A stretch of DNA of 64,000 nucleotides from an uncultured Pseudomonadota bacterium (GTDB taxonomy: Bacteria; Pseudomonadota; Gammaproteobacteria; Steroidobacterales; Steroidobacteraceae): NCBI GenBank assembly GCA_903832085.1, contig CAIKZZ010000046.1, positions 1 through 64,000 of the forward strand, given 5' to 3'. The notes beneath the pieces were generated by a model. That model saw only the letters and a list, made by a program, of their open reading frames with translations, did no database searches and was not told where the DNA came from. Shown here piece by piece: positions 22,535-52,914 of the stretch. The stretch's first letter is position 1, and each line of letters begins with the position of its first letter. The position numbers and the translations under genes are program-made.

Positions 22535-22903
22535 ATGATTCAGATGCGAACCTTGCTAGCGGCAGCTGATAACAGCGGTGCGCGTAGCCTCATGTGTATT
22601 AAGGTGCTTGGTGGTTCCAAGCGTCGTTACGCCAGCGTTGGCGATGTCATTAAGGTGAGCGTTAAAGACGCAATCCCACGTGGCAAAGTCAAAAAGGGCG
22701 AAGTGTATGACGCCGTTGTCGTGCGCACCCGCTTCGGCGTGCGTCGCGCTGATGGCTCGCTCATTCGCTTTGATGGTAATGCGGCTGTGCTGCTTACCAA
22801 CAAACTCGAGCCAATTGGCACTCGTATTTTTGGACCAGTGACACGTGAGCTGCGTAATGCGCAGTTCATGAAGATTATCTCGCTTGCGCCAGAGGTCCTT
22901 TAA
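22535..22903 (+). CDS. rplN: 50S ribosomal protein L14
   Basis: L14 contributes to an intersubunit bridge and is the contact for ribosome silencing factor RsfS, whose gene is also in this window (51.9 kb). The 122-residue protein (123 in E. coli) starts [20 protein letters not shown] and carries [17 protein letters not shown]. It is the first gene of the spc series, but there is no obvious promoter in the 21-nt gap upstream. Confidence 0.97.
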
Positions 22904-51174: not shown

Positions 51175-51875
51175 GTACCTTACAGCGTGTGGCTGGTGGG
51201 GTTACGCCGGCACCAGCGCCGAACGGCCCGTTGGGGATATTCGGCGGAACTTTTGATCCGATTCATTATGGCCACCTGCGCACTGCCTTTGAGTTATTAC
51301 AGCGACTGAGTCTTGCGGAAGTTCGGTTCATACCCGTCGGTACTCCGGCGCATCGAGGTAACACGTTGGCGCCAGCCAGTGTGCGTCTTGCGATGGTTCA
51401 AGCTGCGATTGCCGGGCAACTTGAATTTACTGTAGATGAGCGGGAAATACGCAAAGCGACCCCCTCATATACCATCGATACGCTCGAGGAACTGCGAGTT
51501 GAGTTCCCATCCCGCCCATTGTGCTTGTGTGTGGGTATGGACGCATTTTTAGGGCTGTCCGGTTGGCATCGCTGGTCGGAATTATTGAACTTTGCGCACT
51601 TGGTGGTGGCGCATCGGCCCGGCTGGCAGGCGCCAACTGATGGTCTTTTGGGTACACTGCTCGCAAGTCGAGGGACGGTGCATGCGGAGCAGTTGCATGC
51701 ATCGCCCGCAGGGCGCATCTTTATTCATGCCGTTACGCAGCTGGAAATCTCCTCGACCGAAGTGCGCAGCCTGCTTGATGCGGGTCGTGACCCGCGTTAC
51801 TTAATGCCTGACAGTGTTCGTCAGATTTTGTTGAAATCGGGTTGGTATGCCCGAAAGGAAAAAGCATCCGGATGA
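51171..51875 (+). CDS. nadD: Nicotinate-nucleotide adenylyltransferase
   Basis: NadD makes deamido-NAD from NaMN and ATP. The nucleotidyltransferase signature is GIFGGTFDPIHYGHLRTA, and ISSTEVRSLLDAG is the C-terminal ISSTxIR motif. The ORF track begins at 51108 inside holA. TTG 51171, overlapping the holA stop, gives 234 residues; GTG 51189 is an alternative start. No clear Shine-Dalgarno decides. E. coli NadD has 213 residues. The stop overlaps the rsfS ATG (ATGA). Confidence 0.94.
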   Translation: MSTLQRVAGGVTPAPAPNGPLGIFGGTFDPIHYGHLRTAFELLQRLSLAEVRFIPVGTPAHRGNTLAPASVRLAMVQAAIAGQLEFTVDEREIRKATPSYTIDTLEELRVEFPSRPLCLCVGMDAFLGLSGWHRWSELLNFAHLVVAHRPGWQAPTDGLLGTLLASRGTVHAEQLHASPAGRIFIHAVTQLEISSTEVRSLLDAGRDPRYLMPDSVRQILLKSGWYARKEKASG

Positions 51876-52414
51876 AGTCTAAAAAAACCATAGCGAAGCC
51901 GAAACCCCAGTCTGTTGATCTGACAAAAAGCCCGGCGCGCAAGAAAGCGAGCCTCTTAAAGGGTTCTGTGCGGGCGTCAGCGCCTGTCGCAAAAGTAAAA
52001 TCGGTCGCCAAAGCAAAAGCCAAAGCGGCGCCTAAAGCCAAGGCCAAGAGCAAACCAAAGGCCACAGGTCGCTTGAGTCAGCTGCTGGTTGTTGTGGCGG
52101 AGGCTTTGGGTGATATGAAAGCCCAGCAAGTCACTGTATTAGATGTGCATGAGTTGACCGATGTGACAGATGTCATCGTGATCGCCTCTGGTACCTCTGA
52201 TCGCCATGTGAAATCTATCGCCAGTAGTGTGGTGATGGCCGCTAAGCGCGGTGGATTTCGGCCCTCAGGTGTGGAAGGCGAGCGTGAAGGTGAATGGGTC
52301 TTAGTTGACCTTGGCGATGTCATTGTGCATGTGATGTTGCCGCGTGTGAGAGAGTTCTATGGGCTGGAAAAGCTCTGGGATGTACAAGCCACAGATCGTA
52401 CGGCTAGTGACTGA
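51872..52414 (+). CDS. rsfS: Ribosome silencing factor RsfS with long basic N-terminal extension
   Basis: RsfS binds L14 and blocks subunit joining in stationary phase. The core (LLVVVAEALGDMKAQQVTVLD, then DVIVIASGTSDRHVKSIAS, GEWVLVDLGDVIVHVM and EFYGLEKLWD) is intact. It is preceded by about 66 residues with some 19 Lys, many Ala and Pro and only one acidic residue (SVAKAKAKAAPKAKAKSK). E. coli RsfS has only 105 residues; this one has 180. The ATG at 51872 overlaps nadD. A shorter start is possible, but no better in-frame ATG or Shine-Dalgarno is seen. Confidence 0.92.
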   Translation: MKSKKTIAKPKPQSVDLTKSPARKKASLLKGSVRASAPVAKVKSVAKAKAKAAPKAKAKSKPKATGRLSQLLVVVAEALGDMKAQQVTVLDVHELTDVTDVIVIASGTSDRHVKSIASSVVMAAKRGGFRPSGVEGEREGEWVLVDLGDVIVHVMLPRVREFYGLEKLWDVQATDRTASD

Positions 52415-52443: not shown

Positions 52444-52914
52444 GTGCGCGTTAAGGTGATGGCAGCAGGTACCCGCTTGCCTGCCTGGATTGGTGCTGGA
52501 TTTAACGAATACGCGCGGCGCATGCCGCCGGAGTCCCCGCTGGAGTTGCGTGAAATCGCGGTCGATCAGCGCGGGGGCAGCGGTAGCGCGCTGCGAGCGC
52601 GCCGTGATGAGGGCGAGGCGATGCTCTCAGGCGTCTTGCCGGCTCATTGGGTAGTGGCTCTCGATGTCACGGGTAAGGCGCTTGATACAGCGGCCCTTGC
52701 GCGCTGGTGGCAGGGTCGCCTGACAGACGGGCGCGATGTGGTGTTCCTGATAGGGGGTCCTGAGGGCCTGAGTGAGGACTGCCTGAGCCGTGCGAATGAG
52801 CGGGTCTCCCTGTCACCCCTGACGTTTCCCCATGGAATTGTGCGGATTGTGCTGGCTGAGCAGCTATACCGGGCCAGTAGCCTCCTAAAAGGGCACCCCT
52901 ACCACCGCGCATAA
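52444..52914 (+). CDS. rlmH: 23S rRNA (pseudouridine1915-N3)-methyltransferase RlmH
   Basis: A SPOUT methyltransferase that modifies pseudouridine 1915 in helix 69. The 156-residue protein (155 in E. coli) starts with GTG 52444 (RVKVMAAGTRLPAW). The SAM-knot motifs are FLIGGPEGLSEDCLSRA and LSPLTFPHGIVRIVLAEQLYRA, ending HPYHRA. It is placed after rsfS, the usual order. Confidence 0.96.
   Translation: MRVKVMAAGTRLPAWIGAGFNEYARRMPPESPLELREIAVDQRGGSGSALRARRDEGEAMLSGVLPAHWVVALDVTGKALDTAALARWWQGRLTDGRDVVFLIGGPEGLSEDCLSRANERVSLSPLTFPHGIVRIVLAEQLYRASSLLKGHPYHRA

Follow-up and report, generated by a model that had tools for sequence, protein, structure and literature searches.

Why should RsfS, the factor that holds ribosomes inactive when bacteria starve, begin with a long lysine-rich tail in one bacterial family? 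Few factors for ribosome silencing and 50S maturation are as widespread as RsfS. The protein is the known part of this locus; the new part is a basic N-terminal tail that is found family-wide. The window analysed here is a stretch of 64,000 nucleotides from an uncultured member of the Steroidobacteraceae.

The rsfS gene and its product

The rsfS reading frame runs from the ATG at 51872 to the stop at 52414 and encodes a protein of 180 residues. Its N-terminus, in the translation of 51872-52414, is MKSKKTIAKPKPQSVDLTKSPARKKASLLKGSVRASAPVAKVKSVAKAKAKAAPKAKAKSKPKATG, followed by the core. The features to which we refer below are as follows.

22535..22903, + strand: rplN (uL14), docking partner of RsfS, with T96, R97, R107, K113 and S116 present (sequence)
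51177..51875, + strand: nadD (nicotinate-nucleotide adenylyltransferase), upstream gene (PF01467)
51842..51871, + strand: 3' end of nadD, in which the SD-like AAAGGAAAAA precedes the rsfS ATG (sequence)
51872..51875, + strand: ATGA overlap of the rsfS start codon and the nadD stop codon (sequence)
51872..52069, + strand: N-terminal RsfS tail of 66 residues, rich in Lys, Ala and Pro and predicted to be disordered (19 K, 2 R, 1 D)
51989..52047, + strand: imperfect 24-bp tandem repeat, 2.5 copies, within the tail-coding DNA (AKAKA segment; Tandem Repeats Finder)
52070..52411, + strand: RsfS core (PF02410 residues 75-169), with E135, W142, D146 and Y163 kept (Pfam, NCBIfam, AlphaFold2)
52444..52914, + strand: rlmH (SPOUT methyltransferase), downstream gene (PF02590)

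The first-pass annotation had placed 66 extra residues ahead of the RsfS core, and translation bears this out, with 19 lysines, two arginines and one acidic residue. Of the span that it gave to the tail, 51872-52080, the start holds but the end does not, the tail stopping at approximately 52069.

Profile searches assign the product to RsfS: PF02410 matches residues 75-169 (E=2.5e-31; 108.2 bits against a cut-off of 21.6), TIGR00090 of NCBIfam matches residues 74-169 (E=4.5e-34; score 116.6 against 56.9), and solved RsfS chains are matched in sequence with E values down to 2.8e-32. The gene stands in the order holA-nadD-rsfS-rlmH-maf-rng, between the nadD and rlmH neighbours that characterise rsfS, and it is single-copy, no second RsfS paralogue with or without a tail being found in the genome. 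In an AlphaFold2 model built on a 44-sequence alignment, the core is predicted mostly at pLDDT 91-98 as alternating helices and strands in an alpha/beta nucleotidyltransferase-like fold, and residues 1-60 are predicted to be without secondary structure (pLDDT 53-60). E135, W142, D146 and Y163 correspond to E70, W77, D81 and Y98 of Staphylococcus aureus RsfS, residues studied for their contact with uL14, and all four are invariant in the 44-sequence alignment; uL14, whose gene also lies in the window, has T96, R97, R107, K113 and S116 at the positions of the published S. aureus interface. Because the contact residues of both partners are intact, the standard mode of action of RsfS should apply. 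The gene product is thus an ordinary single-copy RsfS with an added basic N-terminal tail.

The tail as a family trait

Could the true start lie downstream, leaving the tail untranslated? We regard this artefact as having a negligible probability, for three reasons. First, a scan of start codons in the rsfS frame found no further ATG ahead of the core; inside the tail, only residue 33 (GTG) offers an alternative start. Second, the rsfS ATG (51872-51874) overlaps the nadD stop codon TGA (51873-51875) by 4 nt, as the first-pass annotation had stated, and most same-genus genomes share this overlap together with an A+G-rich, SD-like stretch of the AAAGGA(A/C) type before rsfS. Third, the frame is open in the relatives and its changes are biased towards synonymous ones. 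A mis-chosen start codon, which had already been argued against in the first-pass annotation, was therefore rejected on the absence of an ATG ahead of the core and on the conserved reading frame. A frame shift or a fusion with nadD was also rejected, the two genes lying in separate frames with only the 4-nt overlap.

In the relatives, the protein was taken to start at the first ATG, GTG or TTG that follows the nadD stop codon or shortly precedes it, and a tail was scored when it had at least 12 residues and a net charge of at least +3. On this definition, a basic N-terminal RsfS tail is present in 76 of the 81 readable Steroidobacteraceae genomes (median length 44, median charge +14), whereas in the order's other families a single genome of the 42 has one (median length 2, median charge 0). 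Length and charge both differ between the two groups (Mann-Whitney p about 2e-19 in each case). Every readable genome of the same genus has a tail, of 28-76 residues, and across the family the length ranges from 11 to 108 aa. Five of the 81 family genomes have tails that have shrunk to 11-30 residues with net charges of +2 to +5, indicating that a long tail is not essential. The tail of L046 is identical to that of L154 (G052), both from Steroidobacteraceae. No comparable N-terminal RsfS tail was seen in the sample drawn across the class and phylum, in which a few RsfS proteins carry C-terminal tails, notably L235. The first-pass annotation had named orthologues without the tail among the findings that would count against it, and the orthologues proved to carry it throughout the family. 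The tail is a trait of the Steroidobacteraceae, neither a start error nor an isolated oddity.

A C-terminal extension of the reverse character was also encountered: L313, from the phylum-level relative G372, is an RsfS with a strongly acidic, repetitive C-terminal extension of net charge -49.

In pairs of relatives, the tail gave a pS of 0.51, a pN of 0.27 and a dN/dS of about 0.39, the last value being approximate because the alignment of a low-complexity tail is uncertain between distant pairs; the corresponding values for the core were 0.39, 0.09 and about 0.17. Among the seven pairs listed as closest (nucleotide identity of the core 0.89-0.96), which can be aligned with the least ambiguity, the dN/dS of the tail was 0.14-0.53 and its length changed by whole codons. 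The dominance of synonymous changes argues that the tail is translated and selected. The +1 frame of the tail DNA is equally basic (net 1033 versus 1088), so charge provides no frame control, and it is the synonymous bias alone that argues for selection on the protein. As far as sequences can tell, the tail is real, translated, selected and maintained by evolution.

Composition, drift and origin of the tail

What has been maintained? The pooled tails of the family consist of 20% K, 11% R, 25% A, 12% P and 18% S+T, with only 1.2% D+E, and aromatic residues are almost absent. No conserved sequence motif beyond this composition was found in the family tails. KK is not enriched over shuffled tails, nor are S/T-P-K/R-K/R (S/TPKK-type) motifs (10 versus 7.1 +/- 2.6 in shuffled tails); of the short motifs, only [KR]P and AA[KR] are somewhat above the shuffled level (z about 4), a modest excess of the kind that repeat growth would give. 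The tail of the relative L010 also has tandem repeats, KKAVAPKKVVAPKKAVAPKK. Given the lack of a conserved motif and the 24-bp tandem repeat in the tail-coding DNA, growth of the tail by repeat expansion is likely. Its composition is held while its sequence and length drift.

This composition bears on the suggestion, made in the first-pass annotation, that the tail is histone-like and might give RsfS a second nucleic-acid role. The first half of that suggestion stands as far as composition goes, since the K, A, P, S and T content resembles that of H1-like tails, but it fails on profiles, no histone or H1-like profile in Pfam or NCBIfam matching at E up to 1, and on the S/TPKK motifs. A role away from the 50S subunit, in which the tail would bind DNA, mRNA or polyphosphate in a nucleoid- or RNA-associated, H1-like or AlgP-like manner, could draw on the same compositional likeness; the lack of a DNA-binding or H1 profile match and of S/TPKK enrichment fails to support it, rsfS remains in its usual nadD-rsfS-rlmH neighbourhood, and we consider it very unlikely.

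How unusual is such a tail in its own genome? We sampled 464 kb, made up of the 64-kb window and 20 pieces of 20 kb each, which hold 465 non-overlapping ORFs. Scored by its best 40 residues, the RsfS tail shares the top net charge, +14, and has 13 lysines in that length; no other ORF listed, even among the ribosomal proteins, has more than 7. When the entire genome was scanned with a directed DNA pattern for K/A-rich tails elsewhere, two further proteins came out. A hydantoinase/oxoprolinase A protein (L247; G000:C22, about 112.6 kb) has the C-terminal sequence KPKAKAKSKPASKAKSKPASKAKPASKSKS, a K/A/S/P tail resembling that of RsfS. A SET-domain protein (L249; G000:C45, about 50.9 kb, minus strand; PF00856, E=8.5e-22) has a very lysine-rich C-terminal tail containing a KTKTKTKTKT run, an unusual feature in a lysine methyltransferase-like protein with a SET domain. 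Tails of this sort are therefore rare in the genome, and they are not confined to proteins of translation or ribosome binding.

The main rival to a functional reading is that the tail is a weakly constrained, low-complexity accretion that grew by expansion of short DNA repeats and is tolerated as a soluble and disordered segment, selection merely purging hydrophobic or acidic changes and no dedicated function being present. This would account for the high variability in sequence and length (11-108 aa), the tandem repeats in the tail-coding DNA here and in relatives such as L010, the K/A tails on unrelated enzymes of the same genome, and a dN/dS about twice that of the core. It accounts less well for the retention of a net-positive tail in almost all the sampled genera of the family and its absence from the sister families, for a lysine density that no other ORF of the 464-kb sample equals, or for the clear constraint that still acts on nonsynonymous change. 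We consider accretion without a function improbable, although it deserves serious weight.

Proposed role and comparison with known systems

The reading that we somewhat favour, and propose as the most likely, is that the tail acts as an electrostatic tether, strengthening the binding of RsfS to the 50S or pre-50S subunit near H95 and bridge B8. In the S. aureus 50S-RsfS structure, RsfS contacts uL14, its cavity includes bL19 and H95 of the 23S rRNA, and bridge B8 is blocked by it (PMC7125091). Low-complexity regions of prokaryotic proteins show an association between high lysine content and the binding of nucleic acids (PMC6821194). On the proposed model, the core would dock on uL14 in the usual bacterial manner, and the tethered tail, a flexible chain of charge +20, would make sequence-independent electrostatic contacts with nearby rRNA, for which H95 of the 23S rRNA and possibly the helices around bridge B8 are candidate sites. 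Through these contacts RsfS would gain local affinity for the 50S or pre-50S subunit, and the block on 30S joining would be reinforced. A job set by net charge and flexibility would explain why composition is held as sequence and length drift. Contact with rRNA and the gain in affinity are inferred by analogy, the proximity being taken from other species, whose RsfS has no such tail; improved rRNA binding and anti-association activity through the tail are, on the same analogy, plausible. The papers searched included none on lysine-rich RsfS tails. A tail that drifts quickly and yet is always basic across a family provides a natural experiment on whether a hibernation factor can be tuned by charge and disorder alone.

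The tail might instead serve assembly rather than silencing; on pre-50S particles it would then touch either rRNA that is still immature or an assembly factor, for example ObgE. RsfS has been reported with ObgE on Escherichia coli pre-50S particles (PMC9503621, PMC8209004), and the mitochondrial orthologue MALSU1 acts in mtLSU assembly in a module with L0R8F8 and mtACP; the tail, however, has neither a partner-binding motif nor a predicted fold, and we hold this reading to be unlikely. Assembly and DNA or mRNA roles of the tail are both possible, with nothing specific in their favour. There is, finally, a slim chance that the tail makes RsfS a scaffold that binds polyanions and does more than block subunit joining. 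If so, stationary-phase cells might, for example, gather their dormant 50S particles, or tether them to nucleic acid or polyphosphate, which would amount to a form of ribosome storage specific to the Steroidobacteraceae.

With its relatives in the RsfS/YbeB/Iojap family, the RsfS described here, for which we favour the tether, has much in common. The proteins of E. coli and S. aureus have the same complete core, uL14 contacts, single gene copy and nadD-rsfS-rlmH neighbourhood, but they start essentially at the core (105 and 117 aa, respectively), whereas here 66 basic residues come first. MALSU1 has the same core and is an anti-association module on the large subunit, with about 75-95 extra residues before the core in the full-length chain. 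We take this extension to include the mitochondrial targeting sequence, and to our knowledge it is not a K/A/P repeat; MALSU1 also differs in acting with L0R8F8 and mtACP. The RsfS of PDB 28ye (chain G, 152 aa) has, like the present protein, a K/R/A-rich N-terminal stretch ahead of its core, although a much shorter one. L235, from a class-level relative in another gammaproteobacterial family (G338), carries a similar K/A-rich tail of 76 residues and net charge +18, which stands at the C-terminal end, opposite to the present tail, and so appears to be of independent origin. The lysine-rich low-complexity extensions of ribosomal proteins and H1-like tails share composition, disorder and terminal position with it (PMC6821194, PMC11764897), but the present tail sits on a ribosome-bound factor rather than on a ribosomal protein or a histone, and it has no homology to those extensions. 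The E. coli and S. aureus structures, which come from tail-less proteins, may not describe the RsfS of every lineage.
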